A stretch of DNA of 31,787 bases from IMG/VR virus record IMGVR_UViG_3300042691_022068, positions 1 through 31,787 of that record. One strand, given 5' to 3'. Shown one piece after another: positions 1,347-27,925 of this stretch. Source of the DNA: a virus. The notes under the pieces are model-generated. The model did no database searches. It saw nothing but the letters and a program-made list of their open reading frames with translations, and was not told where the DNA came from. Made by a program: the position numbers and the translations under genes. The stretch's first letter is position 1, and each line of letters starts with the position of its first letter.

Positions 1347-2671
1347 TCTGTGTATAGTTTATTTATCTCATCGTAAATTGCGGATATTGAAAAAGCCCAT
1401 GTATCACCTTGCGCAAATGTGCCCCAAACATTCGGATCAGCATAAAATCTAGCCCTAGTTGATGTTTTCTTTAACTTAGGAATAATTTTTCCGCTTGCAG
1501 GAAAACCAGCTCCAGTTACACCATCGTGTGTGTAAATCTTAGTATTAAGTATAGAAGATCTCCAAGCAGGCGTAATAACGATAGAGCCGAAGCCGTCAGC
1601 TCGTTTAACATTAATAGCAAGATAACGATCATTTCCTGGATAAACTTGAGTAACGCTATCTACGTAAAAATCACTTGTGCCTAGCAAAGAAGGCAACTTA
1701 TCTATGTATGATAGTCCTAAAGGAACAGGCCAGCCTTGTCCAGTCGAAAAATAATCAACAGTCTTGTTAGAATAAACATAAATTGTGTTTGTTCCAACAG
1801 TTGCATCGTAAACAGTAAATTCATTAATGATTAATTCGCCTTTATCATTTAATCTTGTTAATCCTATACTTGTGCTTCCAATAAATTCTATTGTTTTTTC
1901 GCAAGCAGCATCTGTACCAGGGTTTTCTATTTTTAAAGTGGTTACTACACCAGCGCCTACAAATGCCTTGATAGAAACATCAGGATTCTGAACTATACCC
2001 GGCACCTCATAAATAAAGTAGTTACTAGGTGCAGTTGTATCTCTTGCCATTATTCTATACTTACGGCTCTCTTGATTAACATCATCCCAGTAAAAATACA
2101 GATCTTGTGTATTACGATCGTATGATGCAGAAAAGTTTATTGGCGGGACTGCGTTATTAAAAGTGCTAGGATCTTGGTATAATTGTCTGTTCCAATAAAA
2201 TGTATCACCTGCTTCTAAAACAAGAGGGTCTCCTTGTATAACAGCACAGTTTAACATATATGTATAAGTATAAGTAGGACCTACTGCTATAAAACTTATA
2301 TTTTCCACATTTCCTATGTATCCTCTAACCCAATCATTAGCACTACTTTTAACTAAAAAAGGATCTCCGTTTTTAATTAGGTTTGACCCAAATAAACCTG
2401 GGTTAGTAGCTGGTGATGCACTTAATGTAGCAACATACTTAATAACGAATGTGAATACATTTAAGTTACCAGTTTCTCTTAAAGTAGAACTTACGCTAAA
2501 CACAGTTGCATCGTATGAAACGCTATAGTCATCGGTGGGCGTAATCTCTGAAGTAAAGATTTTCCCTTGTAGAGTACCAGCTGGTATATTACCATCTTCA
2601 ACAGAAGGCGGTCTTAATGATTGATCTTGGAAATCTGAGTAGATTTCTGGCGCATTATTACGTATTCTCAT
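1316..2671 (-). CDS. structural protein following the gp7-like gene (baseplate/fibre candidate)
   Basis: A 451-residue protein rich in beta-prone, Thr/Ser/Asn/Gly segments with few charged helices, which suits a phage surface or baseplate protein. I recognise no catalytic motif. Its start overlaps the end of the giant gp7-like gene by 14 bases, suggesting coupled translation. In T4 the gene after 7 is 8, a baseplate wedge protein of 334 residues, so a gp8-like role is possible by position only. The middle segment (about 180-240, including FSASYDRNTQDLYFYWDD) resembles a fibronectin-III-like sandwich, which would also suit a fibre or fibre-attachment protein. Structural nature is fairly safe; the exact role is open. 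Confidence 0.6.
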   Translation of the reverse strand: MRIRNNAPEIYSDFQDQSLRPPSVEDGNIPAGTLQGKIFTSEITPTDDYSVSYDATVFSVSSTLRETGNLNVFTFVIKYVATLSASPATNPGLFGSNLIKNGDPFLVKSSANDWVRGYIGNVENISFIAVGPTYTYTYMLNCAVIQGDPLVLEAGDTFYWNRQLYQDPSTFNNAVPPINFSASYDRNTQDLYFYWDDVNQESRKYRIMARDTTAPSNYFIYEVPGIVQNPDVSIKAFVGAGVVTTLKIENPGTDAACEKTIEFIGSTSIGLTRLNDKGELIINEFTVYDATVGTNTIYVYSNKTVDYFSTGQGWPVPLGLSYIDKLPSLLGTSDFYVDSVTQVYPGNDRYLAINVKRADGFGSIVITPAWRSSILNTKIYTHDGVTGAGFPASGKIIPKLKKTSTRARFYADPNVWGTFAQGDTWAFSISAIYDEINKLYTEWSIEEYIKF

Positions 2672-5600
2672 AGATGGTTAAAAAATCTTTTCTGGTGTAA
2701 TTCTTCTTATTACCGTTAGAATCAGTTATTTCCAATTCAATCGTAAACTTACCTGGGCGGTCAAATGTCCACATGATAGCAGGATCTGTTAATTCGACTA
2801 GAGTTTTTGTATCATCTGAAAGTTTCCAATAGAAACCGCTTTTTCCGGCAATTCTGCTAGCATCAGAAGAAAAGTAAACCGTTGAGCCTGAAGGCAATTT
2901 AACGGGTTCTATTCCTATATAAGTGTCTTCCCATCTCCAAGTACCACCTATAGCTGATTCGTATGGTAAACGATTAGATTGCGCTTCTGCAATTAAATCA
3001 TTGTCCCAAACAGGTAAAGCAGGCGGAGTTGGGTTCATGGTAAAACTATACTGTGGCGGTAAATCTGCAGCAGGATACCATCCACCTGGCAAAGCTAGAG
3101 GGTTGAGACCTTCATATTGATAAATTTGATAGTATCTGCTTGTCATCAAGAACTCTTTGAGTCCGCCTTCAAATGCACCTACAAGTCCAACTCCATAACC
3201 AAATTGCTTTGTAACATTCTTTAACGGATACGAGTGACAGATAGGTGTATTGACTAAATTAAGAGGATCTTCAAATGTAACACCGTTCTGACCTATTAGC
3301 CATCCTAAATGATCAGTACTAGGTGTTGATGCAACTGCATGTATCTTTAGGTTAGCAGCGTTTTGGAAAACCAACGTAAAGTCTACTAATTCATCAGAAT
3401 ACCATTCAACATCAAAAGAACTATTTACTTGCGTAAGAGTAGAAGCTGTGTCAAGTGTAAGAGATATGACACTTCCTTGAAACGAAGCAATTTCTACTAC
3501 ACGTGCAGGTAGTGCTGGTGAAACAGGAAGACCTGGTCCAGTAATGATTTCTCCTACGTAAATTTCATTTTCATTTAGGCCAGTGATTTTGCTAATTACA
3601 GCTGAACCGTTTTTAACATTACCAACAAAATTTAATTTCTTTGGTAGAGGATTAACCATTTGAATGTCATTGGGTGTAGCACCAACAAAAGGATAAACTT
3701 GAATTTCAGCAGCAGGTCCGGTAAATTCAGAAACTACTACATCAAACGGTATAGGTGCTGGGCCAGCACCGTTAGCATCTATAATAAGATCTGGGTAATC
3801 ATATGTATTTAGATAACCAAAGAATCTTTCTTTATCTACATTTTCTTCACCAAGTAATTCATATTCAAATCTTGAAAGCGCAGTGTTATCAGTTGCTCGT
3901 AATTCATAAAGAGCTTGCGACCATTTTTCTCCGTTTGACATACCACCAATGATTCCTTGGAAAAAGAATGTTATGTCATTGTTGAATTGTATACTACCGT
4001 TTTGGTCAACACCAGTTATGATAAAGTCACAAGCAATTCTTTCTTGAAAATCTACAGTATCCCATGTATGATAACAACTTTCATCCCATGTAACTGTTCT
4101 GTAGTTCTTCCATTGCTGAACCAGAGTGCCTATTTTAGTTTCAGCAAAGTCTTCATCAAACTTTCTTTGCATAACTTGAAATGATGAAGAACTTCTTAAA
4201 AGCTCAGATTCAATATCGTCTACGGTTATGATAGTGTTTGTTGTATTTCTCCAATATCCTGTGTTAGTTACAAGAAGAGAATAATCGCCAGAAGCAATAC
4301 CATGATCGTAATACCACCCAGTTCCCGCGGTAGTTACAGCAAACTCAGGAGCAAGCGCGTTATTAAAATCTCCACTTGAAGGGTACATGTTAAAGTCCAT
4401 ATAAATCTCTGCATTACCTCCAGAGTTTTGCCCTAAGTAAGTTCTTGTTGGGAATTCATTGTATTCATATTCTATCCATATACTTGCACCACCACTTTGC
4501 CATGTTGCTAGTTGAGAAGTTAGACCGTCAATATCGCCACCGTCAAGTGCTACAAAATCAATTACATGAACTCCTGTATAGCCAGCAGGTAATCCTCCCC
4601 AAATATCAAAAGGGTGGCCCGTGTTACTTGTGTCAAAGAAAACGTGAGTAGTTCTAAGACGTTGCTCATATATTCTTCCTAAAAGAGGATCCTGCACATA
4701 AATGGTAATAACAGAAAAACCAGGTGTGATTTCTGCTGTTGGATCAGCTGGAAGACATCCAGGTAAACCTAAAGCAGGAGTTGCGCTAAGTATGTATAAC
4801 TTACCTATGTGGTCATAAATAAGAGGATCATTAATTGGACTTCCTTTGATAACCCATGTAGAATTTGCTGGAGTAGAATCCCAAATCAAGTTTCCATTTA
4901 CCAAGTTATCACCACGATATTGATAAATCATTCCTAATTCACCGCCATCATAATAAATTGAATCAGTACCTCCGCCGTTTAAAGTTATGTTATTTGGCTG
5001 CCCTGCGAGAGGGAGAGTATCTTTACCTATAATTTGTGTGCGATATCTCTTAGGAATATCATCAGCACCAAACAGACGAATGTAATCACCTATCACAATA
5101 CCATTAGGATTGGTAACTGCATTATAGATTTGATCACCAGCAAGAACAACCGTTCCACCAACCTCTCTTAAAACTTGCCATGTAGTAGGGCTGTTAGTAA
5201 ATGCAGAAGGCGGTATAGCAGTAAGTTCAATTTCAGTTTGCCCGGGTGTTCCGTAATTTGCATTTAGAACTTCTAACTGATATGTAACTCCGTCGCGTCG
5301 AATGAATATCCAATCATTAGGATTAATTGCAGGTTCTATTTCAGGGTACGCTCTTTGACCTGATACAACGATTGTTGGGTTAAGAGTTGATGGAGTAGTT
5401 GTAGAATCTGTATATGAAATAACTGGACCTTCAACATTATCTTCAGGCGAAACCTGAATAACATCAACAGGCACCTTTATCGGATAGTTATATTCATTAA
5501 CTCTATTTAAGTTCCCGGTTTCTAAACTGTCCCATCTTACACGAGCAGAATCCCATGTAGTTAATGTAAATGCGGGGTTTACCCATCTACCAAAAGCATT

Positions 5601-8600
5601 TTCCCAATTATAGCGAATTCCTTCTGGTAACACCGGTTGAAGATCTACAGGATTGGGTTCAAACTCAGGTATTGGCGGTTGATAGTACTCATCCCAAGTA
5701 TCAACGCATCCTTCAATATATCTTGCTACGTACGCATATGTAGCGTCAGGTAATACAACCTCTATAAAATTATTCTTAATTTCATTAATAAAGTTGTTAT
5801 CAGTATCATATGCAATCATTTCAACAGTATACTTTCCAACATAAGGAAGTATAAGTTGATGATTGATTAAATCGTCTATAGGTTTAATTCCTGAAAAGTA
5901 ATTAAACTGGTGAATAGGATTTTCTGGCGCAGTTAAAGTTACTTTCCATTCCATCTGATAGAAATCGCCTCTTCCTAATTCATCCCATGTATACAAGTTC
6001 CCAACATGCCCACCTTTCGGCGAGATCGTTGGTGCTGATGTATATCCACTACCTGGGTTAGTAACACTTACGCCTTCGTGAATTTCAATCTCATCACCAG
6101 CAACAGTAGTAATTACAACCGGTGAACCGTCAAATTTTGTAAGTATTACTTGAGAAAACGGTTGGTTTACGGCACTTACAATAGTTCCTTCCGGTATGCC
6201 AGGGCCTTTTATGATTCTGTTAGGACTTACAACATTGCTACCCGTAGCAGGTAATAGTGGAGACAAGTCCAAAACATTTCCTGCAACAGCAGTTACAGTA
6301 AAGTTAAGAATTTTAAGTTGCCCGTTTCTTAATTCAGCAGGCGCAGATAAACCACAGACTTCTCCACCAGTTCCATCACCTCCGCCTACAACAAATGTTG
6401 GTGCATATCTGTAAACATTACCAGGACTAACAATTTCAACAGCTAATAGCTGCCCAGATCCTGAAGGCAGTTCACTTACATAACCTTTAAGTACTGCGTC
6501 GCTTCCACCACCAAGAGAGTTCCATGTATACGGAACTTCATCCCATGTAATATCAAATGCTGTTTTTAAGTCAAGCGGTGCTCCTACAGGAGAACCAGCA
6601 ACATTAATAAACCCAAAGATTGGTGCGTTATCATTTAGATAACCTACCGGTGAATTATTTACCGTTATTAAGTCTAAGTTAATAGCTGATCCTATATTCG
6701 GTAAAATGTCAACAGTTGGTATGTTGCTATACTTAATTCCTTTTGTAGTAAAACCTATGCTCTCAAGTTCGAATGGTATGTCTGTTGATAAACAGTTAAA
6801 TCCTTGAGCAGAAGCAGCAACATATTGAGTACCAGAGATTCTTGAAACGCTTGCCTGTGAAAACCCGGATGTAGGCAAAGAAGAATAGTTTGATCCTTGA
6901 TGTAATCCTGATTGTATTGCAAAGTTAGTTACTTCACCATTAGGACCAACAGTATTAACTGTGATTCTTATCGGCACTTCATAAACTCCTCCGCTTAAAG
7001 TAATAACGTCACCAGGTTGATAACCGACACCGCTTGGTGTAAGAGGCGCAATAATTCCTAAAGAATATGCACGCATCTTTGTGTAACCGCTTGCTTGCTG
7101 ATACGCTTGTCCAGGAAAAGATACCTGAGGAATCTGTCCCCAATAAGGACCTCCCGGCGTTGCTACAAGAGCATTGTTTATGTTATACTTATTTGTGTAT
7201 TCTCCAAGTAAATCAAAGTATGGCGGAGAAGGTAAAGTTTCATCTGGGTCAAAAGGAATAGTACTCTCAACTTCAATAGTCTTCTTATCAGCATCAAAGT
7301 CAATTTGACGAGTAAGATCTACATTAAAGTAGTTGCTTGGATCATTCCAAGAATTTACAGAATATCTGTCGTAATAAACACCTTCTCCAGTAATATCAAC
7401 TATTCTTGAGTTAAGAGGTAAGAATTTCTCTTTTAAGTATCTCTTAAGTGCAAATAGTTTAATTAAGACTTCTTCATTAGTATATTCAAATGCGTCTTGT
7501 GTAAGAGGCATTCCAAAACTATCAAATTCTCCGCTGTCTTTAATTAAGTCATAAAATAAACCAAATCTACTTGTCTTCTTGTAATGCTTGCTGGGAACAA
7601 GATTAACTTCTTGCTTTGTGTTACCCTTATCTTTTAACTGAAAAGGGATTTGTACTTGTCTGTACTTGCCAAAATACTCATCGTCTTCGTTAACATTTAA
7701 GAAGTATTCTTTGACGCGAATATCATAATAACCAAACCAGTTAAGCATGTTAACCAATCCTTTGTATGATCCTACATAAGGCCAGATGTTATTGCCTTCA
7801 AGCAACATTTCTTTTCTCTTTGCGTTGAGAAGAACGTTGTCCGGCAAATCTTCGTTTACATCAGAATCTCTAAGAATAAGTTCTTGTTCAAAATCTACAT
7901 CACGGCCAAAGTTCTGAAGCAAAAGACCTAATCTTTCATCTTCAGCAACAGTTTCTCCTTCGTATAAACCAAAGAATACTCTTACAGGAGTTGGGTATGT
8001 AACGTCATCAAGATTAATTTGCGCAGCATAAACACCTTCGTAATCAGCTCTTAGTCCTATGTTAAAAGCAAGAGCATTTTGATAGATTCTTTGGTATACA
8101 GTTCTTTGATAAGTACCGTTACCTGTTGGAAAAGTATCAACGGGTGTACCTTCTTGTGGGTCATCTACCTCAAAAAACTGTTCTCTGAATTTTTCTATAG
8201 TCGGGTAATCTTCATTGTATACTACATCAAACAAGAAAAATTCTTCGTCGCTAGACGGATCTAATGAAATTCTAAACAAAGGAATTACACCAAATCTCAT
8301 AGTGCTTGTTAGCGTAGGAGGGAGAATTTGCGATGATTCAAAAACAAGTTCTGTCGGTGATACTTTAACAAGTTCATGTCTTCCGTCCAAAGAAGAAGAA
8401 CCTAATGTATCAAAAATTCTTATAGTATTACCTACACGTAAATTATGAGGTTTGAAGAACTCGATGTTTACGCTACCAGTAGGTAAACTTTGACTGATAG
8501 TAACAGTATTATATGTTGTATCAATAGAAGAAACAAAGGCTATGTCAGAAATTCCTGTTCCGACCACAAACATTCCAACTTCTATAAGAGATATCGTTGC

Positions 8601-9200
8601 AGGCGGTATGCCCCAGATAACAGAAGGCTTATTCTGCAATACGTTACCAGATGCAGAAATAGTAGATATTTTAACAGTAGCGCTTGTTCCGTTAGCTGAA
8701 TAACTTTGAATATCAAAAGGTCCGTATTCATCAGAACGAGGAAAGCAATATGCTTCGTTACCGTTTGCATCAAATACATTTTCTACTATAAACAATTGGT
8801 CAGTTGCGACCAAGCCAGTAGATACTGGTTCTAAAAATTGATTAGTAAATAAGAAAGAAGATGTATAAGAAAAACCTGAGTTTTCTATAGGATATGTAAC
8901 ATTAAAAGATGTTATTACACCGCTTATAGAAAGAGTTAAATCTATAGGATCCGTTGTCCAAGTTGCACCTGATTGCGCATCTTCGAATTTTAAGTAAGTA
9001 CCAGGATTATACCCTTGACCGCCTGCCAAAATCTCTACATAGATGATTCTGCCAGCTATGTCAGTATACGCATTGATAAGTGCGCCGTTCCCTTTTATGT
9101 CTCCGGGATCGACAACAGTAACGACAATCGATTTTGACTCAGTAGGTGATAAGCTGTTACCTTTCTTATCAAATAATCTTAGTTTATTTACTAATAACAT
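2658..9200 (-). CDS. giant gp7/gpI-like baseplate wedge protein with C-terminal repeats
   Basis: At 2180 residues this is the largest gene in the window; T4 gp7 has 1032. It follows the gp6-like gene with only a 90-codon ORF between, the T4 6-7 order. Around residues 465-500 the motif YVGSYKGLVNMLNWFGYYD resembles the KGT...A...LG signature of P2 gpI, the gp7 counterpart. The remaining two thirds is a mosaic. It has GxGYxxxP turns near residues 55, 760 and 1050, about six TWDE/TWDS-type motifs between about 885 and 1710, and PKD-like strands near 1125 and at the extreme C-terminus (GKFTIELEITDSNGN). It probably forms a wedge backbone with exposed beta-domains. The start ATG shares its A with the preceding stop (TAATG). 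The wedge role is inferred from order plus the motif. Confidence 0.7.
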   Translation of the reverse strand: MLLVNKLRLFDKKGNSLSPTESKSIVVTVVDPGDIKGNGALINAYTDIAGRIIYVEILAGGQGYNPGTYLKFEDAQSGATWTTDPIDLTLSISGVITSFNVTYPIENSGFSYTSSFLFTNQFLEPVSTGLVATDQLFIVENVFDANGNEAYCFPRSDEYGPFDIQSYSANGTSATVKISTISASGNVLQNKPSVIWGIPPATISLIEVGMFVVGTGISDIAFVSSIDTTYNTVTISQSLPTGSVNIEFFKPHNLRVGNTIRIFDTLGSSSLDGRHELVKVSPTELVFESSQILPPTLTSTMRFGVIPLFRISLDPSSDEEFFLFDVVYNEDYPTIEKFREQFFEVDDPQEGTPVDTFPTGNGTYQRTVYQRIYQNALAFNIGLRADYEGVYAAQINLDDVTYPTPVRVFFGLYEGETVAEDERLGLLLQNFGRDVDFEQELILRDSDVNEDLPDNVLLNAKRKEMLLEGNNIWPYVGSYKGLVNMLNWFGYYDIRVKEYFLNVNEDDEYFGKYRQVQIPFQLKDKGNTKQEVNLVPSKHYKKTSRFGLFYDLIKDSGEFDSFGMPLTQDAFEYTNEEVLIKLFALKRYLKEKFLPLNSRIVDITGEGVYYDRYSVNSWNDPSNYFNVDLTRQIDFDADKKTIEVESTIPFDPDETLPSPPYFDLLGEYTNKYNINNALVATPGGPYWGQIPQVSFPGQAYQQASGYTKMRAYSLGIIAPLTPSGVGYQPGDVITLSGGVYEVPIRITVNTVGPNGEVTNFAIQSGLHQGSNYSSLPTSGFSQASVSRISGTQYVAASAQGFNCLSTDIPFELESIGFTTKGIKYSNIPTVDILPNIGSAINLDLITVNNSPVGYLNDNAPIFGFINVAGSPVGAPLDLKTAFDITWDEVPYTWNSLGGGSDAVLKGYVSELPSGSGQLLAVEIVSPGNVYRYAPTFVVGGGDGTGGEVCGLSAPAELRNGQLKILNFTVTAVAGNVLDLSPLLPATGSNVVSPNRIIKGPGIPEGTIVSAVNQPFSQVILTKFDGSPVVITTVAGDEIEIHEGVSVTNPGSGYTSAPTISPKGGHVGNLYTWDELGRGDFYQMEWKVTLTAPENPIHQFNYFSGIKPIDDLINHQLILPYVGKYTVEMIAYDTDNNFINEIKNNFIEVVLPDATYAYVARYIEGCVDTWDEYYQPPIPEFEPNPVDLQPVLPEGIRYNWENAFGRWVNPAFTLTTWDSARVRWDSLETGNLNRVNEYNYPIKVPVDVIQVSPEDNVEGPVISYTDSTTTPSTLNPTIVVSGQRAYPEIEPAINPNDWIFIRRDGVTYQLEVLNANYGTPGQTEIELTAIPPSAFTNSPTTWQVLREVGGTVVLAGDQIYNAVTNPNGIVIGDYIRLFGADDIPKRYRTQIIGKDTLPLAGQPNNITLNGGGTDSIYYDGGELGMIYQYRGDNLVNGNLIWDSTPANSTWVIKGSPINDPLIYDHIGKLYILSATPALGLPGCLPADPTAEITPGFSVITIYVQDPLLGRIYEQRLRTTHVFFDTSNTGHPFDIWGGLPAGYTGVHVIDFVALDGGDIDGLTSQLATWQSGGASIWIEYEYNEFPTRTYLGQNSGGNAEIYMDFNMYPSSGDFNNALAPEFAVTTAGTGWYYDHGIASGDYSLLVTNTGYWRNTTNTIITVDDIESELLRSSSSFQVMQRKFDEDFAETKIGTLVQQWKNYRTVTWDESCYHTWDTVDFQERIACDFIITGVDQNGSIQFNNDITFFFQGIIGGMSNGEKWSQALYELRATDNTALSRFEYELLGEENVDKERFFGYLNTYDYPDLIIDANGAGPAPIPFDVVVSEFTGPAAEIQVYPFVGATPNDIQMVNPLPKKLNFVGNVKNGSAVISKITGLNENEIYVGEIITGPGLPVSPALPARVVEIASFQGSVISLTLDTASTLTQVNSSFDVEWYSDELVDFTLVFQNAANLKIHAVASTPSTDHLGWLIGQNGVTFEDPLNLVNTPICHSYPLKNVTKQFGYGVGLVGAFEGGLKEFLMTSRYYQIYQYEGLNPLALPGGWYPAADLPPQYSFTMNPTPPALPVWDNDLIAEAQSNRLPYESAIGGTWRWEDTYIGIEPVKLPSGSTVYFSSDASRIAGKSGFYWKLSDDTKTLVELTDPAIMWTFDRPGKFTIELEITDSNGNKKNYTRKDFLTIYENT
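4081..6549 (-). repeat. dispersed repeat encoding T-W-D-E motifs
   Basis: The plus-strand 12-mer TCATCCCATGTA occurs exactly at 4081-4092, 5980-5991 and 6538-6549. Near copies lie at about 4062 and 5550, and a variant at about 5690. On the coding strand it spells the recurrent protein motif T-W-D-(E/S/T) of the giant baseplate protein. The repeats are spaced irregularly by hundreds of bases, so they look like a recurring structural motif in related domains and not a tandem array. Confidence 0.6.
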
Positions 9201-9473: not shown

Positions 9474-11168
9474 TTATGTATTCTTAATGTTATCTATGTT
9501 TATTCTATGAATGTCCATGTTAAGAGACTTAGAAGTACTCTTACCGTATGCAATGTTAATACTTCCAGGTTTTGATTGGTCAGCAGTATCATAATAAAAA
9601 TAACCATTTCTTGCTGCCCATCCTCCACGAATTAACGCGTATTCACCTCTTCCAATAACCACATCTCCAAAAGAATCTATACCTATGTCAGGTTTGTTAA
9701 CGTTTGCAGGATCGCTTTTGAAAACTTCATTTTCTTCAGATACAAACCAAAGGTTAACTGAATCTACACCAGGCACGTTTTCAATAATTGAAATCAGGTC
9801 AGACTTTGGTATCTTGTCTCGTCTGCGATTATTTAAGAAGTACTCGCTGCATTTAGATATTACTTGTTGTGAAATAGTTTCTTTGCTATAACCTTCAAAT
9901 GCAGAAATGTTTATATTTACCACATATCTTTTAACCACAGGATCTATAATCTTTACTATCGTAGTTAAAATCTTTTGTCCGCTTTGCTCAATGTAATCAT
10001 ACACCTTTTGTTTTTCTTCGTCGGTTAAAAGAAACAGCGAATAAGGAACAGTAAAGTAGTCAGCGTTACTAGGTTTTCTCTTATTAACGTCTGGTATTAA
10101 GAAAAGATAAACTACGTTATCATCAGAAACATCTCCATCATCAAGAGTACTGAATGCATCAATTACGCTAAAGATGTTAAACTTCTGCAAGAAGTAAACG
10201 TATGAATCAGCATTCGCTAAAACGTATGATCTTGAAGTTTTTGGAGCAAGAACTCGGGTTAGATAAATTGGTTCAGCATCAGAACCAAACATTATAGGTT
10301 TGTTAATAGCAATATCAATAACTTCGTCAATCTTGATAGCATTTCCAAGTAGATCATAAACAGGTTCATCAAAAGCAAATTCAGGAATGCCTTCTAAAAT
10401 GTTACCTGCGTTTCCGGCAGTTGTAAGATATTCAACACGAATAGTAGATCCTAACGGCGGAGCAGCACCAAAGAATCCGTTACCGAAATATAAGTCTAAT
10501 CCTCCGCTGATACCTGTCTTAACTACTACACCTTTTTCTTCATAAGGCATATCATAAACAGAATCGTATTGCTTCCATACTTCAGAATTTACATACACCT
10601 TAATAAAGAAGTTATCAATCTGAGCGTTCTTCTTAGGATTAATAGCAAATGATTGTAAAGGTAATCCTGTACCAGTTACAGTTTGGGATTCAATAGCGCC
10701 TTGTGTAACTTTAACTTCTATAGTATTTTTACCAGTCAGGTTCATTCTTATTTCTTCTACGTCAGTAGTTATTGTATAAGAAAGACCCGAAGAGTTATCA
10801 ATTAAGCGAGTGTAATTTGGAATAATTACAGTGTTTCCGTAAAGATCTATTGGGTTGCCATTATATGTTAAATTAATAGTGCCTGATGCAGCAACAGCTC
10901 TAGAAGGATTGTGACCTGCGATACGAGCAAGACTTCTTACGGATACATCACGAGTAGCCGTAAAGATATTCATTTCAGTTACGCTATCTTCAACATAATA
11001 AAAGATTAGTTTTCCTAAATCAAGCATTACGCTTAGCAACTGACCATAGGCACTTGCTGGTGAAAATACGTCTCCTACTTGTGCAAAGGTTCTAACAAGA
11101 TAGTTTTGTGCGTCAGCGGCTAACTCGTCATAGCGTATTCTGTTGTACTTAAAGATTTCTAATGCCAT
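9474..11168 (-). CDS. 6: baseplate wedge protein, gp6/gpJ family
   Basis: A 564-residue protein with the look of the baseplate J family. It has an N-terminal helical segment beginning with YDELAADAQNYLVRTFAQVG and a conserved central part with SVRSLARIAGHNPSRAVAASG (about 75-95). Next comes a long beta-rich region, then a C-terminal domain with a VNINISAFEGYS...IPKSDLISIIENVPGVDSV pattern typical of J-like proteins. In T4, gp6 dimers form the ring linking the six wedges around the hub. It lies immediately downstream of gp25, as W and J lie together in P2. It is somewhat shorter than T4 gp6 (660 residues). Assignment by motif and neighbourhood is strong. Confidence 0.88.
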   Translation of the reverse strand: MALEIFKYNRIRYDELAADAQNYLVRTFAQVGDVFSPASAYGQLLSVMLDLGKLIFYYVEDSVTEMNIFTATRDVSVRSLARIAGHNPSRAVAASGTINLTYNGNPIDLYGNTVIIPNYTRLIDNSSGLSYTITTDVEEIRMNLTGKNTIEVKVTQGAIESQTVTGTGLPLQSFAINPKKNAQIDNFFIKVYVNSEVWKQYDSVYDMPYEEKGVVVKTGISGGLDLYFGNGFFGAAPPLGSTIRVEYLTTAGNAGNILEGIPEFAFDEPVYDLLGNAIKIDEVIDIAINKPIMFGSDAEPIYLTRVLAPKTSRSYVLANADSYVYFLQKFNIFSVIDAFSTLDDGDVSDDNVVYLFLIPDVNKRKPSNADYFTVPYSLFLLTDEEKQKVYDYIEQSGQKILTTIVKIIDPVVKRYVVNINISAFEGYSKETISQQVISKCSEYFLNNRRRDKIPKSDLISIIENVPGVDSVNLWFVSEENEVFKSDPANVNKPDIGIDSFGDVVIGRGEYALIRGGWAARNGYFYYDTADQSKPGSINIAYGKSTSKSLNMDIHRINIDNIKNT

Positions 11169-11177
11169 TTCAATTCA

Positions 11178-11540
11178 TTATGTTGCTACAACGCCAAGGT
11201 ATTTCCTGCCGTCTATGTATATATCTATGTAAGCAATATCTCTTACTGTCCCAGGGACAAAACTAACTTGTAAGTCAATTTTGTAATACTGCGACTCAGG
11301 AACATACTTAGAAACTTGACCAAAAAAGTTTTGCTGTAGCTGAAATGCATTAAAATTTAATTCGAATAGATGATACTCAAGATCTAACCCAATGTCAGGC
11401 AACCCAAGAACCTCTCCACGATTAGTAAACAAAATCATACGAAGTTTCGTTAATAACGCTTCAATAGGATTGTGTGTTTCTAACAGCTGATAGTTATACT
11501 GTGGGTCGTTTAGGTTTCTGCAGTAGATTTCTGTTAACAT
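11178..11540 (-). CDS. 25: baseplate wedge protein gp25 / gpW
   Basis: A 120-residue protein of typical gp25 length (T4 132). It has the family's core pattern: helix NPIEALLTKLRMILFTNRGEVLGLPDIG at about 24-51, with the GE (42-43) and P-x-IG (48-51) signature, then a second helix and a C-terminal beta hairpin ending IDGRKYLGVV. The protein belongs to the wedge core that joins the sheath to the baseplate, and related proteins serve contractile injection systems and type VI secretion (TssE). It sits directly before the gp6-like gene with a 9-base gap, a conserved pairing. No Shine-Dalgarno sequence precedes the ATG. Confidence 0.9.
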   Translation of the reverse strand: MLTEIYCRNLNDPQYNYQLLETHNPIEALLTKLRMILFTNRGEVLGLPDIGLDLEYHLFELNFNAFQLQQNFFGQVSKYVPESQYYKIDLQVSFVPGTVRDIAYIDIYIDGRKYLGVVAT

Positions 11541-11541
11541 A

Positions 11542-12273
11542 TTAGTGGAATATGTAGAACCAGTCTGGGCTGTTCTCGTCGTCTATTTTTTGTTTTATTT
11601 GTTCAATTTCTTCTTTACCTTCATCAGTCATTTTACTACCGTCAATAGCAATACCACCTGGTAAGTTAAACTGAAACATTCCAAGTATTCTACCAAGAGA
11701 GATTTTCCCTTGTGCAATTACATATCTTTGAAAGAACCAATCATCATATAATTTAGACTCTTCAATCTTTACATATGTATTTATGAAAAGATTTTTCTTA
11801 GGGTCACGACCAAGAATCTTTAATCGATGTGTGTTTGTGTTATAGTCGTATCTAACTCTTTCAAGTATGAATGCTTTTGTAAGATCCCAATAAGAATACT
11901 GAGCAGTACGTAATACCAAATCATCAGAAGCAAATGGCGCAAGATAAATTTCTGCAGCAAGAAGTCGGTTATCACTAAAGTCTCTATCAATAGTTCCTAA
12001 TCTACCACCACCTGATATCTCACGACATTCAAATACGCTAACTACACAGTCAGGCAAAAGAATGCTTCGCGTTTTCTTAAATTCAGGGTCCCCAAACCAC
12101 TGTCGTTGAATTACATAATACTGTGTTTCTACAGCAGGTCCGTAATTAATATAGAACCAATTCAGAGCTTGGTCAACTATACGTTCAGCTTCTCTGGCAG
12201 GAATAGAATAAGGAAGAGCACCACTTGCGGTGATCTCATTATTTATTAGTTCTATTAATTCGTCTCTAGTCAT
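11542..12273 (-). CDS. structural adaptor-like protein (neck or wedge candidate)
   Basis: A 243-residue protein whose N-terminal part is helical (TRDELIELINNEI, then EAERIVDQALNWFYINYG). A beta segment follows with ILLPDCVVSVFECREIS (about 71-87). This layout, helices first and then a 'LP-x-x-V-x-SV' strand, is reminiscent of head-tail adaptor or neck proteins such as the gp13-type connectors. It ends one base before gp25, so it could equally be a wedge component. No enzyme motif is visible. I treat it as a structural protein with uncertain place in the particle. Confidence 0.55.
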   Translation of the reverse strand: MTRDELIELINNEITASGALPYSIPAREAERIVDQALNWFYINYGPAVETQYYVIQRQWFGDPEFKKTRSILLPDCVVSVFECREISGGGRLGTIDRDFSDNRLLAAEIYLAPFASDDLVLRTAQYSYWDLTKAFILERVRYDYNTNTHRLKILGRDPKKNLFINTYVKIEESKLYDDWFFQRYVIAQGKISLGRILGMFQFNLPGGIAIDGSKMTDEGKEEIEQIKQKIDDENSPDWFYIFH

Positions 12274-12280
12274 ATAAAGA

Positions 12281-12625
12281 TTAGTCTAATTCAGGAGCAA
12301 AACCAAGGCTGTTTGCGCAATCTTGCTCAAAGTAAGCCTTTTGACTGCGAGGATATTCATGTGTAAATACTACCTTATCATCTTGAATAATCTCAAGAAG
12401 GTATGAACCCTTGCTAGTAGTACCAGCTTTAATTACCCATTCGTTTCCGTTGCGTTTTTCATCTGCATAATATACTTGAACAAAGTCAAAACGATTATCA
12501 TCATCTTCGTCAGTTCTTTCTTCGTCAAACTCAAAAGAAACTCCTCCTAAGTGCAGTTTCTTTTCTATGTCAAACGGCAAATGAGCTTCATTCAAAAAGT
12601 TTTCAAATGTTTTAATGTGCTTCAT
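12281..12625 (-). CDS. small acidic protein with capsid-targeting-like N-terminus
   Basis: A 114-residue acidic protein beginning MKHIKTFENFLNEA. T4 internal head proteins begin MKTYQEFIAEA, a capsid-targeting sequence cut by the gp21 prohead protease after (I/L)-x-E. Here L-N-E at 11-13 would be the matching cleavage site. The rest has a DEERTDEDDDNRFDF acidic patch and a small alpha/beta-looking domain (FVQVYYADEKRNGNEWVIKAG). Packaging into the head, or ejection with the DNA, is therefore a reasonable inference. Similar N-termini do occur on other proteins of T4-like phages, so the caveat stands. The start ATG lies inside the end of the 42-codon ORF (14-base overlap). Confidence 0.65.
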   Translation of the reverse strand: MKHIKTFENFLNEAHLPFDIEKKLHLGGVSFEFDEERTDEDDDNRFDFVQVYYADEKRNGNEWVIKAGTTSKGSYLLEIIQDDKVVFTHEYPRSQKAYFEQDCANSLGFAPELD

Positions 12626-12752: not shown

Positions 12753-14174
12753 TTATTTTTTCTTGGAATCTTTTTCCTTTTTGTTTTTCTTGTCTTGGGT
12801 AGCATCTTGAAAAGTATTTCCACCGGAATTACCAGTTTCGCTAGGCTGACCTTCAACAATCATAGTATCTTTGGAAATTTTTGCAAGTTTTCCAATTTCA
12901 CCATTACGAATAACACCTCGATTAACTTGACAGTTAATGATGTTTTTCTTGTTTTCAATGAAGCAATCATTTAATACGTTATCAAGATGCAATTCACATT
13001 CTGCAACTTTACTAAAGTCAACAGTATTGCCTTTTACAAAATTACCGTCTTGTATTCTTGAGTTCTTAATCTTGCAATCATAAAACCATGCTCTATGAAT
13101 AACACCTTCAATTTCACAATTGATAAACTCCATATCGGATAACTTACAGTTACTCAACTTGGTATCTTTTAATTGAAAACGACCTATTTCTTTGTCGTAA
13201 TTAAAAGCACCCTTTTTCATTTTTCCTGTAACTATAAGATCAAACAGTTTTTCGCGAATGTTGCCCCACATAGATTCCAATACTTGCGGATCTGCGTTCA
13301 TATCAACTCCAACTTCAATATCAGGAAACGCTTTTTGAAAATGTTCGTATTTAACAAAAGCTTCATATATCTTCTTGTCAATATCAGTCATTTTCTTGAA
13401 GTCTCTCTTTTCTTTGTCGGTGAATCCTTCAAAGTTTAGGGTATCATATAAGTGAAGAATAAAGTAATCGACCAAATCAAGAATTTTCTTTGTCATCTTT
13501 TCATAATCTTTACCGCCTAGGTAACGATACTCAAGATATCCTTTTTCCGCTTTTAAGAAGTTAACTCCATAATACTTCTCATCAGCAGGAAGAGTTAGCG
13601 TGGCACGGCTAAAATCTTCCAGTGATGGAGAATAAAAAAGAACCCTGTTAGGTCTTAGTGTTTTAATACTTCTAGCATAAACACTTCCTTCTCTTTTAGG
13701 GAATATGTCATATATTTTCTTTTCGTCAAAGGAAAGAATAAACTTTGGTATGTTCATATTAGGAATGGTAAAACGAGTAGGAACCGCGTTTTCATCAATA
13801 CTAATGTTTACGTGTATAGAACATCTTTCATTAGTATAACCATTACTGCCAATCCATTCAAAGACTTTAATTAAGACATTTCGTGCATCTTTATACTTCA
13901 TCGGTCCAGTAACCAATTCACACATACTCTTACCTCCTGAATAATCAGGTTCTAATTTGAATATGTCAGCAGTAGGAGCTACTGGTGAGTGATAAAGAGG
14001 CTTAGGTTCTGTTAAGGAACTCAATGCAAGAGGGACTACTACCCTTCTCTTTACAAATTTTGCAATATCCTTTGCAGTTTCAAATACATCCATTGAGCTA
14101 TAAAACTCAAATTCGAATCCAATTTTTCCACCGTCAAGAACCTCAGTCTTAGTGTAATTCTTTTTAACCTTCAT
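12753..14174 (-). CDS. amidoligase-like enzyme fused to a pentapeptide-like repeat domain
   Basis: Read from ATG 14174 (473 residues). An in-frame ATG at 14216 would push deep into the S1 gene, whereas 14174 gives an 11-base overlap like its neighbours. Residues 15-240 match the amidoligase (COOH-NH2 ligase, glutamine-synthetase fold) layout: GFEFEF (19-24), CELVTGP (85-91), CSIHVNIS (118-125; family form CG-HVH) and YLEYRYLGGKDY (213-224; family form EFR-x-x-G-T). These enzymes form amide or isopeptide bonds using ATP. Residues about 335-428 repeat a five-residue rhythm (LKDTKLSNCKLSDMEFINCE) typical of pentapeptide-type right-handed beta-helices. The tail after 440 is disordered and Lys-rich. 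Substrate unknown; the surroundings suggest expression with virion genes. Confidence 0.72.
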   Translation of the reverse strand: MKVKKNYTKTEVLDGGKIGFEFEFYSSMDVFETAKDIAKFVKRRVVVPLALSSLTEPKPLYHSPVAPTADIFKLEPDYSGGKSMCELVTGPMKYKDARNVLIKVFEWIGSNGYTNERCSIHVNISIDENAVPTRFTIPNMNIPKFILSFDEKKIYDIFPKREGSVYARSIKTLRPNRVLFYSPSLEDFSRATLTLPADEKYYGVNFLKAEKGYLEYRYLGGKDYEKMTKKILDLVDYFILHLYDTLNFEGFTDKEKRDFKKMTDIDKKIYEAFVKYEHFQKAFPDIEVGVDMNADPQVLESMWGNIREKLFDLIVTGKMKKGAFNYDKEIGRFQLKDTKLSNCKLSDMEFINCEIEGVIHRAWFYDCKIKNSRIQDGNFVKGNTVDFSKVAECELHLDNVLNDCFIENKKNIINCQVNRGVIRNGEIGKLAKISKDTMIVEGQPSETGNSGGNTFQDATQDKKNKKEKDSKKK

Positions 14175-15360
14175 TTGGCAATGATAAGAAAATTTTATCG
14201 TTATGAACTCTATCAATAGAAACCATTACTGTGTCTCCAACGGTAAAGTTCTTTTTCTTTGTTTTGATCTCTTTTTGGGAAATCATTCCGCAGATATCTT
14301 TTTGTAATTTAACTAACGTTCCAAAAGGTTGTACTGAGATAACTTCGCCTCCTCGAATAGTTCCAAGATTTTTTTCTTTAAACTCTTCAAGTTCTAATCT
14401 TTTAAATGTCGGATCTTCATCTGTAAGAATAATTTTCTTATCAGCAGTAATTTCCTTTATCCAAAAAGTTAGCTCATTTCCAGCCGTTACTTCACGGTCA
14501 TTAAACTTCTTTTTCATTTCAGCGGTCATTTTGCTCGTATGCAATAAACCTGTGAATATCTCATCAAACTCAACGAACACCCCGTACTTAGCTACACCTG
14601 TAACATTTCCTGTGTACATCTTATCAGTTTCTAATTCACTAATTTTGCTAGGCAATATCATATTCACGTATTTCTTATACGAGAATACAAATGTATTGCT
14701 TTCGCGTAAGTAATCTTCTACAACGACAGGAATTTCTTTTCCTATCATGCTGTCAAAATCTCTTACGATATTTGTAGCAGCAAGTGATCCAGGTAAGAAA
14801 CCTTTAATTCCTGCGACAAATATGATAAACCCACCACCGTTCTTTTCAAGTATCTTACCAATGTAAGCAGTTGTTGGTTTAGCAATTTCTTTGAAAAGTT
14901 CACTCTTGATCTTTTCTTCCATTCCTCTAGAAATAGAAACCTTAACATAAGGTTCTACTTGCTCGACAATAGCTTGTACTTCTTGGTTTAAAAAGTAGCT
15001 TTGTCCTTCCTCGGTATTTAAGTACGATGAAAAACCGTCAGGATCCATGTTAATTGTGTTCAAGTAGCCTTTTTCTCTTTTAAGATCTACTACTGCATCA
15101 ATTAATCCTCCGAGTATTACATGCACTTCTGACTTGTTAGTGGCTCTGACAGAAATAATTTTTCTAGTCTCACCTTCTTTGAGTTCTTTGCTTAAGATTT
15201 CTTGTCCGAGAATCATTTTCTCGTAAAGGTCTAAAGCATAAGGCTCCAAGCAGTAATTCTTAGCGCCGTATTTTGCTAAGATCTCAGGATTGGGTTTTCT
15301 TCTTTTACCAGACTCCAGTCTGTCCCAATCAAATTCTTGTGTGTTTTTTTCTGTGTTCAT
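14164..15360 (-). CDS. multi-S1-domain RNA-binding protein
   Basis: A 398-residue protein with three recognisable S1 (OB-fold) repeats. They are about 163-231 (AYIGKILEKNGGGFIIFVAGIKGFLPGS), 246-316 (YTGNVTGVAKYGVFVEFDEIFTGLLHTS) and 331-395 (GTIRGGEVISVQPFGTLVKL...GMISQ). Repeat 2 has the classic G-V-x-x-x-x-YGVFVE...GLLH pattern of ribosomal protein S1. The N-terminal 140 residues may contain one more degenerate repeat. It could bind mRNA at initiation, substitute for or compete with host S1, or protect phage RNA. A promoter-like ATATATAC lies 15-24 bases upstream of its ATG, so it may be expressed separately as well as by read-through. S1 folds are certain; the role is inferred. Confidence 0.85.
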   Translation of the reverse strand: MNTEKNTQEFDWDRLESGKRRKPNPEILAKYGAKNYCLEPYALDLYEKMILGQEILSKELKEGETRKIISVRATNKSEVHVILGGLIDAVVDLKREKGYLNTINMDPDGFSSYLNTEEGQSYFLNQEVQAIVEQVEPYVKVSISRGMEEKIKSELFKEIAKPTTAYIGKILEKNGGGFIIFVAGIKGFLPGSLAATNIVRDFDSMIGKEIPVVVEDYLRESNTFVFSYKKYVNMILPSKISELETDKMYTGNVTGVAKYGVFVEFDEIFTGLLHTSKMTAEMKKKFNDREVTAGNELTFWIKEITADKKIILTDEDPTFKRLELEEFKEKNLGTIRGGEVISVQPFGTLVKLQKDICGMISQKEIKTKKKNFTVGDTVMVSIDRVHNDKIFLSLPNEG

Positions 15361-18300: not shown

Positions 18301-19941
18301 ATTTAACGACTGCACTAATAAAGTATCTAATCTGCCTTTAATTGCAGGATTCGTAATAATCATTTCCAATGACTTACCGTTGTCTTTAAATCCTGTAAGA
18401 TTGGATATGGAATTTGTAGATCTTTTTACCTTTTTTCTAGCCTTTTCTACATAATTTTCGAAATCATATGTATTAAACCCTGTAATGTTAAATTCATCTT
18501 TAATTTCTGCCTCAAGACCTGCTTGAAAACTATCTACAGAACTCTGGTAATTTTCTTGTAAAGAATTTAATGATTCATTAAAGCTGTTTTTCTGAGCGGT
18601 TAAATTTGCTCTTTCTACATCAGATAAATTAGTTAATGCTAACTTTGCATTAACATCGGCTAACTGAGAATTTATTGAGGCTTTTTCTTTTGCTATCGCA
18701 ACAAACGGTGGATTCAATAAGTTTTTGGCAGTAGCTCTTTCTGAAATGTATATGTGATTTAAGTCATGTAAAAGAGCAACTTCTTTAAAAGCATAGTATC
18801 TGCTGATAGCATTAACTTTTTTCTTTCCACATTCATTCATTATATCTTGTGCCTTTTTAACACAAGCTAACATATTTTCAGTTTTCTTTAGTTCATCTTC
18901 AGGATTTGGTAAGTCAAGACCGTTAATCAGATCTTGTATGTCTTGTATGTTTCCAAGAGGCACTTCTGGTTCAATTGGAACTACGCAAGGTATTGCTTCT
19001 TCTACTTCATCGGTAGAAAATTTCTTAGTCTTTGAAGGTCTTTTGCCACAAAGATCCATTTTACCAACTTCTTTAAGTTCTTTAACCAGAGAATCACCAA
19101 CTTCACCTTTAAGTTTTTTCTTGATAGCGTTAGCAGCTTTAAGATTATCTTTATAGATTTTTTCTGCAATAGCTCCAAGATTTTCTTCTATGTATAGATT
19201 AATTCCTTCACGTTCTAAAATAGAAAAGAATTCTTCAGCGGTGGCTGCTGCTAATAATTCTGTCAGAATAGCAATGTCTTTAATTTCTTTCTTAGCGGCA
19301 TCTTTTAATTCTTTTAATGACTTACCGGAAGAAGGCGTTAATAAAGATTTGATCTTTTCGTTTTTAAGAGCTGCGAGAGCTTTTTCAGGTGTATTAAAAT
19401 TTGTATCAACAGCTGGTCCCCATGAAACTTCTTTTGTAGATATAGCAAAACGAAGGTTTACTGAAACGGGACCCATCTTGATAGACTTGTTTAGCGTAAT
19501 AGCTGGAACAGTAAGAGAGATCTTGACGTCTTTCATTTTGCTTGTGTCAAGACTAGGAAGAACTTTACTTACATCAATAGTAGGGTTATCTGACAAGTTT
19601 TTTGCTGATGCAGCAGTAGCTTGTATTTTAGAAGTATCTAAAGAGGCAAAGTCAATTGAAAAAACTTCCTTGGTTAAATTTACAACATCACCAATAGCTC
19701 CACCTAGTGTTGCATTTATTGTGTCTAATAACTTTAAGACGCGATCTTTATCATTAGGATTTTCTACCGCAGGTAATGCCTTCTTAGCAAAAGCTTTAAT
19801 ACAAGTGTCATCATCTTGCTCCGTTGCATTGATATTTTGTCCAGCATTTGGGTCAAGAAGAGAACTTATTTCATTTAAGACGCTTTTTGCATCATTAGAA
19901 AGTTCATCGCAGCAATCACATCCTTTTTTGATTTCATTCAT
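15394..19941 (-). CDS. 1515-residue structural protein (hub-associated or tape-measure candidate)
   Basis: A very large protein placed directly after the spike gene, with a TAATG overlap. The N-terminus carries a C-x-C-C cluster (8-11). Residues about 415-480 form a heptad-rich, probable coiled coil (AKEKASINSQLADVNAKLAL). Residues about 840-905 form a long hydrophobic, proline-broken stretch (IPVPAAIPTLAMGIPDPVISIP, then LWVHLLTLSTPVGTFVFWIG) that may enter or contact a membrane. The C-terminal 500 residues are Leu/Ile/Pro-rich helices. Length, coiled coil and hydrophobic segments would suit a tape measure, but the position after hub and spike would suit a hub-interior protein. I recognise no homologue with certainty. 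Confidence 0.6.
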   Translation of the reverse strand: MNEIKKGCDCCDELSNDAKSVLNEISSLLDPNAGQNINATEQDDDTCIKAFAKKALPAVENPNDKDRVLKLLDTINATLGGAIGDVVNLTKEVFSIDFASLDTSKIQATAASAKNLSDNPTIDVSKVLPSLDTSKMKDVKISLTVPAITLNKSIKMGPVSVNLRFAISTKEVSWGPAVDTNFNTPEKALAALKNEKIKSLLTPSSGKSLKELKDAAKKEIKDIAILTELLAAATAEEFFSILEREGINLYIEENLGAIAEKIYKDNLKAANAIKKKLKGEVGDSLVKELKEVGKMDLCGKRPSKTKKFSTDEVEEAIPCVVPIEPEVPLGNIQDIQDLINGLDLPNPEDELKKTENMLACVKKAQDIMNECGKKKVNAISRYYAFKEVALLHDLNHIYISERATAKNLLNPPFVAIAKEKASINSQLADVNAKLALTNLSDVERANLTAQKNSFNESLNSLQENYQSSVDSFQAGLEAEIKDEFNITGFNTYDFENYVEKARKKVKRSTNSISNLTGFKDNGKSLEMIITNPAIKGRLDTLLVQSLNGAEDTIFDSYLKVENYTFISGEGSPRTGFLENGLWKKYYSPNRIDDLFTWQEQGYTSPKPQYDSQGNALGTKSTVEIKSGDGSTIVQEVPTSVKECNVDLSVAVPFIEKLEELTRGKINSLATQILSSSNAEPYIQKIKFYARLEAKLSFYDMLGSTGFSNISVSNFETFNPDKFVNELTISQKFLKKLQLELNGLVKIIEESNDCIEKQKAAITECAQKAGGGKESPGTEKKCKDLLGSDPLGLKGSNGCPDYKKNCYWREYTKIMQTVSLMPIPDLQFLNKRLFRYYPVALQIPVPAAIPTLAMGIPDPVISIPMPFLWVHLLTLSTPVGTFVFWIGAAGGIIPNVYVMLIDEKQQAIFAVTLTGPSKIPDPALGITDFDNKSLLELLPGLDTTLRINLTQFPGNLFSGSTRLDVNKPDSSKTVIDNIKGKIKKSVDELVIPDPPIFGGNTPTALQVKDLIKNALKFTDCNNAEAIKLALKAVIDLLIASLDGLDVPGIKIPRDSTGMMMELPNAIAMLDTVNSLISTLKTAPGEAQKLLKEIGLAINNPLDVTAKLKELVRANTAATTSIGIFAEFDAKIDELEAELDLGNPEEAAKKRLDLVKELLRKQIEDAIKKITPEKLGFVSVADILPVLPEPCYTNVPIPPLPPGIALALETIKNIPNIILGLADDLILRALSAIIDFAVQLPSAEELFQLGVNLFLDLLPPLVIPIDISVSLLKEIKKALQNFIKTFTVRLPKVGLPIQIEIPGQKILAIIKNAIKDFLSALKDFADCYINQICNNLGSPDVASKIAAILNIIKLLFSVNLDQIAGPDIKAFLFSLLETIAFPALDVLGSLIDAASNLKSPFLSIISQFVSPDPPKPEGPFLELNPKFIKDYVDPIVKGAATFTSENIPFPVILLGCAFPATRAVLTKIHPSKPKEILPAWEGLSTKNFPFIIWLDQLVATAQRNALLGNSYVAPYFA

Positions 19942-20774
19942 TATGAACTTACTTTAACGTTTTTAGAAGTAGACAGCTGTTCAAAAGCAGCAGCTTGTGA
20001 ACTATAAACACCAGGTGTTGAAGGTAACTTTCCGTCAACTGCAGTGGCAAGAGATTTTAAGAATGTCCATAAAGGCTCAGCAAGAACGGCTGAATATGTA
20101 GGAGCTGGTCCAAGTTTTGTTACTGCTGAACCGTTCATAGCAACTTCGGTAGATTCTGCTCTAATCAAAGAATTAGAAGTTAGATTAATACTTGAGTTAC
20201 ATGTGATGTTTATATTAGGACCTATAAGTTCAATTATACTTTCACTGCCAGAGTGTTCTATAGTGATGCTAGTATCAGGGTTTATTGTTATGTGTGAATC
20301 TCTTAAGAATATCTCCATACCGTTATCTGGTGTGTAGTATACTCTTAAATTTTCATCTTGGTCCCAGCCAAAAACATGACTGTTTAGATATGAATTGGTA
20401 ATAGCCGCTTGCATATCAGTATTTATGTTCATAATAGCAGAATACTCAGGGGAGTAAATGTTGCCATCACAAAAATTTACTGAAACTATTGTTCCTATCT
20501 TAGGTACACTTAAATTACCAAAGCCTCCGTCTCCACCAGCAAAAAAGTTATTACTTCTAGGATATGCCCACGGAATATCCTCTGTCGGTAATTCTGTTCT
20601 TTTAGTTTGTCCAGCTATAGGTTTATTGTTTTTATCAAGAACTGGCTCTTCAAAGTCAAAGATGCCAAACACCATTATTCTGCAACGGCCTTCACGATTA
20701 GGGTCGTCGTTATCAACAACTCGACCTACAAATATACCCGTTGATAAAAATTCTTTACTAAGAGTGTTTGCCAT
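19941..20774 (-). CDS. baseplate central spike, gp5/gpV-like, without lysozyme domain
   Basis: A 277-residue protein. Residues about 12-115 form an OB-fold-like segment (GIFVGRVVDNDDPNREGRCR at the start; VPKIGTIVSVNFCDGNIYSPEY at the end), the N-terminal domain of gp5 and gpV spikes. Residues about 150-215 are short alternating strands (HITINPDTSITIEHSG, then INITCNSSINLTSNSLIRAES), the triple-stranded beta-helix of the needle. T4 gp5 (575 residues) has a lysozyme domain between these parts; here they are joined directly, as in P2 gpV. The trimer would sit under the hub and pierce the outer membrane. It is followed by the 1515-residue gene with a TAATG overlap. Confidence 0.85.
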   Translation of the reverse strand: MANTLSKEFLSTGIFVGRVVDNDDPNREGRCRIMVFGIFDFEEPVLDKNNKPIAGQTKRTELPTEDIPWAYPRSNNFFAGGDGGFGNLSVPKIGTIVSVNFCDGNIYSPEYSAIMNINTDMQAAITNSYLNSHVFGWDQDENLRVYYTPDNGMEIFLRDSHITINPDTSITIEHSGSESIIELIGPNINITCNSSINLTSNSLIRAESTEVAMNGSAVTKLGPAPTYSAVLAEPLWTFLKSLATAVDGKLPSTPGVYSSQAAAFEQLSTSKNVKVSS

Positions 20775-27625: not shown

Positions 27626-27925
27626 ATGAAAAACATTAAAACATTTGAAGACTTTCTTGGTGGGTCGAACAAGACTAACGAAGAAGCTGAGGGAAAAGGG
27701 TACAAAGTAGCACTTGACACAATCATTAAGAGTGCTGAAGAAATTAAAGGTCTTATTACCGACGACGAAGATCTTGAAGCGTGGGTACAAGACAAGATTA
27801 CCATTGCTGAACATAACATGGAAGCAATTCTTGGTTATATGAAAGGCGAAGGTGGAAAGAAAAAAGTTGAAATACCAGTTCAAGGTGATATGAAAACTGG
27901 CGGAATGTTAAAAGACGAAAACTAA
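27626..27925 (+). CDS. small protein with capsid-targeting-like N-terminus and conserved helical domain
   Basis: A 99-residue protein beginning MKNIKTFEDFLGGSNK, nearly the same opening as the minus-strand gene at 12625, but without an L-x-E directly after it. Residues about 28-72 form a helical domain (ALDTIIKSAEEIKGLI, then EAWVQDKITIAEHNMEAILGYM). I associate this WVQDKIT-type pattern with small structural proteins of marine myoviruses, without a known function. It starts 16 bases after the acidic gene and ends in a TAATG overlap with the CapA-like gene, so the three genes are one transcript. Internal head protein is the favoured guess. Confidence 0.62.
   Translation: MKNIKTFEDFLGGSNKTNEEAEGKGYKVALDTIIKSAEEIKGLITDDEDLEAWVQDKITIAEHNMEAILGYMKGEGGKKKVEIPVQGDMKTGGMLKDEN

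Follow-up and report, generated by a model that had tools for sequence, protein, structure and literature searches.

Glutamine synthetase (GS)-like amidoligases (Amidoligase_2), of which Iyer et al. reportedly gave an account in 2009, form an acyl phosphate and subsequently synthesize an amide. In HK97-type capsids, cross-linking is self-catalyzed. For phage LUZ24 and crAss-like phages, the amidoligase gene was found in a cassette together with GATase and COOH-NH2 ligase genes, located beside replication genes. According to one proposal, the cassette changes the surface of the host so as to prevent superinfection (PMC5498523).

The gene analyzed here is located in a 31,787 nt stretch of viral DNA (IMG/VR virus record IMGVR_UViG_3300042691_022068), in the following termed the window. 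It is a conserved gene that is inherited along with tail and baseplate genes in the largest phages known, and it encodes an amidoligase-type domain fused to a beta-helix. The fusion was regarded as undescribed in a sequence-only reading of the window, and the literature searches likewise turned up no description.

Domain structure and family assignment

The gene and its parts are arranged as follows (window coordinates):

12753..14174, minus strand: whole gene, single copy, encoding the 473-aa amidoligase/beta-helix fusion; open reading frame with an ATG at 14174
13425..14132, minus strand: GS-like Amidoligase_2 catalytic domain, residues ~15-250 (PF12224 match to residues 17-193; GS match in Foldseek)
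14103..14120, minus strand: motif 1 GFEFEF, residues 19-24; invariant G19, E21, E23; E. coli GS counterpart GPEPEF
13917..13952, minus strand: motif 2 EPDYSGGKSMCE, residues 75-86; invariant D77, S79, G81, E86
13800..13817, minus strand: motif 3 IHVNIS, residues 120-125; GS counterpart MHCHMS; position 121 is H or Q
13515..13577, minus strand: KYYGVN ... LEYRYLG, residues 200-220; invariant K200, G203, N205, E215, R217, G220
13224..13493, minus strand: helical linker, residues 228-317 (AlphaFold2 secondary structure)
12852..13211, minus strand: pentapeptide-type beta-helix, residues 322-441 (Pfam, MfpA profile match, lag-5 test and model); invariant N325, R423
12756..12851, minus strand: Lys-rich tail, residues 442-473; mostly modelled with low confidence, variable within the family

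The four amidoligase motifs noticed in the sequence-only reading were confirmed as GFEFEF (residues 19-24), EPDYSGG...E (75-86), IHVNIS (120-125) and LEYRY (214-218). With the exception of H121, no key residue of these motifs varies among 86 non-redundant family members. The Pfam search matched Amidoligase_2 (PF12224) to residues 17-193 of the window protein with an E-value of 0.0045 and 17.3 bits, which is below the curated cut-off of 22 bits. Among 77 diverse family members, 26 were matched at E<0.01, the best with 2.5e-7. A PHROGs search with the window protein resulted in zero matches. The PF12224 scan of six whole genomes was silent everywhere, controls included, and the family's own profile replaced it for whole-genome scans.

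Modelling with AlphaFold2 resulted in pLDDT values of 89-90. In the model obtained with the family alignment (pLDDT 89.2, pTM 0.84), the catalytic domain, the helical linker and the strand ladder are all predicted with confidence. Foldseek searches of the full model against the PDB identified glutamine synthetases (best E-value 4.4e-6, probability 1.00) as well as the pentapeptide protein MfpA; for the catalytic part alone, the top matches listed were exclusively GS (best 1.5e-5). The TM-scores to GS in Foldseek are low (about 0.2-0.4), so the GS-like domain found here is a divergent version, and the geometry of its GS-type active site is a predicted one, to be read at this level of similarity. 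GFEFEF, IHVNIS and LEYR align with GPEPEF (E129, E131), MHCHMS (H269) and IEVR (E357, R359) of E. coli GlnA, and the E-x-R at E215/R217 matches E357-x-R359 of GS. Profile-profile comparisons were not significant for E. coli GlnA and weak, likewise not significant, for LUZ24-type amidoligases (E 0.083); the homology to GS therefore rests on fold and motifs. Against viral models (BFVD), many named phage amidoligases matched the catalytic part in Foldseek.

The profile search and the structure prediction suggested in the sequence-only reading thus both pointed to the proposed enzyme, with Amidoligase_2 matched below the cut-off in the window protein and well in the best member, and with a GS-like fold predicted. 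Membership of the Amidoligase_2 enzyme family is near certain. Within this family, the protein would represent a phage-specific branch of glutamine synthetase-fold ligases.

For the C-terminal part, Pentapeptide_4 matched residues 332-379 of the window protein below the cut-off (E 3e-4; Pfam) and 43 of the 77 diverse members, and the family profile matched MfpA with 7e-5. The five-residue rhythm read from the sequence was reproduced by the lag-5 autocorrelation of core residues (p=0.005 for the window protein, p<0.0005 for the family average); by the same test it is restricted to the C-terminal part, with no such signal in the catalytic domain, the linker region or elsewhere in the two remaining parts. 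The length of about 90 residues given initially had to be extended to about 110-120, as the AlphaFold2 model contains a regular strand ladder over residues ~322-440. The Lys-rich tail is present as described, with residues 443-457 below a pLDDT of 50. It is not a defining part of the protein, because it is poorly modelled, evolves faster in the more distant pairs (higher dN/dS) and is reduced to 5 residues or fewer in one clade. These short tails also rule out the Lys-rich tail as a general amine donor.

Conservation of the fusion and relatives without beta-helix

Relatives were identified by protein searches in huge-phage genomes of 462-735 kb, five of them complete. Two profile-guided scans of IMG/VR yielded several hundred related stretches each, and 80 from either scan were retained. 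From IMG/VR and the five complete genomes, 165 full-length orthologues were collected, including the window copy. Both domains are present in all of them (165/165), so that the same fusion, which the earlier reading had proposed to look for in related phages, is a property of every collected orthologue. An 85% identity limit resulted in 86 non-redundant copies. The full-length gene is present exactly once in all 14 family records that were searched (14/14). LR756502.1, a 642-kb phage, has an additional partial hit for the amidoligase profile at 208717-208992 (E 9.5e-7, one internal stop), far from the main copy. No cellular relatives were found in the genome collection with a scan that relies on matching short conserved peptides.

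Thirteen residues of catalytic type are the same in all 86 non-redundant copies, which have diverged to 26% identity. The invariant positions of the catalytic part are those listed above together with R161 and Y166, and N325 and R423 of the beta-helix are likewise invariant (n=86). Position 121 is occupied by H in 68 and by Q in 18 of the 86 copies, with 17 of the 18 Q members forming one clade; this subclade may therefore have altered or lost catalysis. Strong purifying selection acts on the catalytic domain as well as on the beta-helix: the dN/dS of each was ~0.03-0.10 for all pairs that allowed an estimate of dS.

The family profile also identified AUZ94978.1 of Agrobacterium phage Atu_ph07 (2.1e-20), which scores 30.2 bits against PF12224, above the cut-off. 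Its gene (gp196 by offset count from the published portal number) is one gene from the portal gene and inside the cluster of CDS 170-215. This is one of the three clusters that account for most of the virion proteins identified by mass spectrometry (PMC6102473). Salicola phage SCTP-2 encodes two tandem amidoligase paralogues (gp124/gp125, 33% identical, L014:6924-10684) upstream of the head maturation protease and one gene away from it. Since these beta-helix-less outgroups adjoin head genes, the linkage of the core to virion genes probably predates the gain of the beta-helix, an order of events suggested by the rooted tree.

Position among virion genes and co-inheritance

The following neighbours were identified in the window:

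14164..15360, minus strand: S1-domain protein, upstream (Pfam S1 7.6e-23, three repeats); its stop codon is overlapped by the amidoligase ATG
12281-12625: 114-aa protein between the amidoligase and Ad2 genes, starting with MKHIKTFENFLNEA
11542..12273, minus strand: head-tail adaptor, Ad2-like (phrog_211 1.3e-10)
11178..11540, minus strand: baseplate wedge, gp25-like (phrog_43 / phrog_261 weak, 0.003-0.004; conserved position)
9474..11168, minus strand: baseplate wedge, gp6 / Baseplate_J (phrog_219 8.8e-34, PF04865 1.5e-6)
19941..20774, minus strand: baseplate hub / tail lysozyme N-terminal-like protein (phrog_430 6.7e-14)

Virion genes are thus found on both sides, in agreement with the operon position initially proposed. 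A virion marker was present in the examined flank of 79 of the 86 loci. For clade 1, Ad2 was found in all 50 loci (50/50); in 46 of them, it is the first labelled gene downstream on the same strand. The S1 gene was found in 47 of the 50 and is the first labelled gene upstream in 46. Clade-2 genes are located near a conserved protein of ~750 aa and a sheath-like gene, the Ad2/gp25 linkage being retained in basal members. A DHH phosphoesterase is among the clade-2 neighbours, and for some of these loci no virion marker was seen in the examined flank. Clade 2 includes genomes >634 kb with Bacteroidetes as predicted hosts (PMC7162821). The divergence of the enzyme followed that of its neighbours, with a Mantel r of 0.965 for gp6, 0.92 for gp25, 0.91 for Ad2 and 0.954 for S1.

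Two neighbouring proteins were considered and ruled out: the clade-2 downstream gene as a substrate, since it is the DHH phosphoesterase, and PGA_cap as a functional partner, since it occurs in 2/20 records only. The latter, a CapA-like protein (27925-28980, plus strand, E 4e-43), is encoded divergently to the tail operon; the 20 records comprised related genomes and controls. The window also encodes a 2180-aa protein (2658-9200), located downstream of the baseplate genes and with a PKD domain at its end. The S1 protein of the late operon is common to Lak phages and stands beside tail genes in clade 1. A scan for promoters and terminators remained at chance level.

Many proteins of LR745206 (634-kb phage, 400 kb scanned; loci L209-L228) start with MK(Y/H)(L/I)K.(F/Y)NE or M.KKY..FI.E, with 24 regex matches compared to 6.6 expected in shuffles. 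We take this N-terminus, shared with the 114-aa neighbour, to resemble the T4 capsid-targeting sequence, and it may mark packaged or processed proteins. A capsid-targeting-like N-terminus in the fused family itself was unconvincing, though it was seen in the SCTP-2 paralogues and in neighbouring proteins.

Proposed function and comparison with known systems

We favour an active ATP-dependent amide ligase that is docked by its beta-helix to a virion protein, which it modifies or cross-links; our confidence in this reading lies just under the halfway mark. ATP and metal would be bound through the conserved Glu/Asp/His and E-x-R residues. A carboxylate would be activated as an acyl phosphate, and this would be passed to an amine, resulting in an amide or isopeptide bond. 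The C-terminal beta-helix may act as a rigid docking arm toward a virion or assembly protein of the same late operon (neck, baseplate, tail), and the docked protein would be modified or cross-linked during particle building, possibly in the virion itself. Location alone does not place the gene product in virion assembly, because the operon also holds the non-structural-looking S1 protein; modification of a virion protein is consistent with both synteny and co-inheritance. The members with Gln at position 121, the low TM-scores to GS and the clade-2 loci with a DHH phosphoesterase or without a virion marker also weigh against the favoured reading. In a more specific and more doubtful version, the beta-helix-docked ligase is dedicated to huge-phage assembly, where it would introduce covalent modifications or cross-links into proteins of the neck, tail or baseplate, as an enzyme-catalyzed counterpart of the HK97 system.

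An active amidoligase could also act on a small metabolite or on a polymer of the host surface (the stem peptide of peptidoglycan), e.g., for superinfection exclusion as suggested for the podovirus cassette, the late operon then reflecting only the timing. This is unlikely, even though the LUZ24 / RIO-1-type cassette amidoligases belong to the same enzyme family. GATase_6 (PF13522) and COOH-NH2_lig (PF14395) were found in 0/5 complete family genomes, while the LUZ24 positive control was matched, and a surface polymer is less favoured as the target because these two diagnostic cassette partners are missing. The gamma-glutamylamine cyclotransferase PF06094, present in 3/5 complete huge-phage genomes, would fit such a target; it is sporadic and unlinked, never adjacent, and was found in 2/14 further records (most of them maybe fragments). 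Furthermore, the amidoligase gene is firmly tied to virion genes and co-inherited with them, whereas the LUZ24 and crAss-like cassettes adjoin replication genes.

A cytoplasmic target is less probable still, namely the S1-domain protein or a host ribosomal protein that would receive amino acids in a RimK-like manner, steering late translation. The S1 gene directly upstream, which overlaps the amidoligase start codon, its position in 46/50 clade-1 loci and its Mantel r of 0.954 speak for such a link, but the S1 gene was found in 0/36 clade-2 loci and is tens to hundreds of kb away in complete genomes. In addition, there are Lak phages with an S1 homologue but without the amidoligase, and the Atu_ph07 and SCTP-2 homologues adjoin head genes.

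The protein could also have a purely structural or scaffolding role in the neck or baseplate, without catalysis and with GS fold and beta-helix as building blocks. This would fit a single-copy gene in virion clusters, one subclade without His121 and the common use of beta-helices in virion architecture. It is equally improbable, since a loss of catalysis throughout is not expected when thirteen residues of active-site type show no variation at all in sequences that otherwise diverge to 26% identity.

If virion proteins are the target of the docked ligase, huge phages would finish or strengthen their particles by enzymatic amide chemistry, which to our knowledge would be new for tailed phages. 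Even with a different substrate, the family represents a lineage of phage amidoligases distinct from the surface-modification cassette already known.

The window family shares the four-motif catalytic pattern, the profile matches and the GS-like fold with the Amidoligase_2 / GS-like amidoligases. It differs in its divergence, with mostly low scores for the Pfam model, and in the added helical linker and C-terminal beta-helix. The same full-length architecture is found in UniProt A0A6J5PQ40 of an uncultured Caudovirales phage (TM 0.83-0.89, 28% identity), an uncharacterized protein without annotation or functional description. The five-residue repeat beta-helix is known from MfpA and Qnr (PF13599); compared to these, the helix of the window protein is shorter, degenerate and fused to an enzyme. 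AUZ94978.1 of Atu_ph07 and gp124/gp125 of SCTP-2 have homologous amidoligase cores in virion neighbourhoods but differ by the missing beta-helix, a long insert after motif 1 and, for SCTP-2, two tandem copies. LUZ24 gp18, Pseudoalteromonas PSA-HP1 and crAss-like cr108_1 also have a phage-encoded amidoligase fold, but as part of replication-side modules that contain genes for GATase, COOH-NH2 ligase, ATP-grasp and cyclotransferase as well. Unlike in these LUZ24-type cassettes, the enzyme of the window family stands alone amid virion genes.
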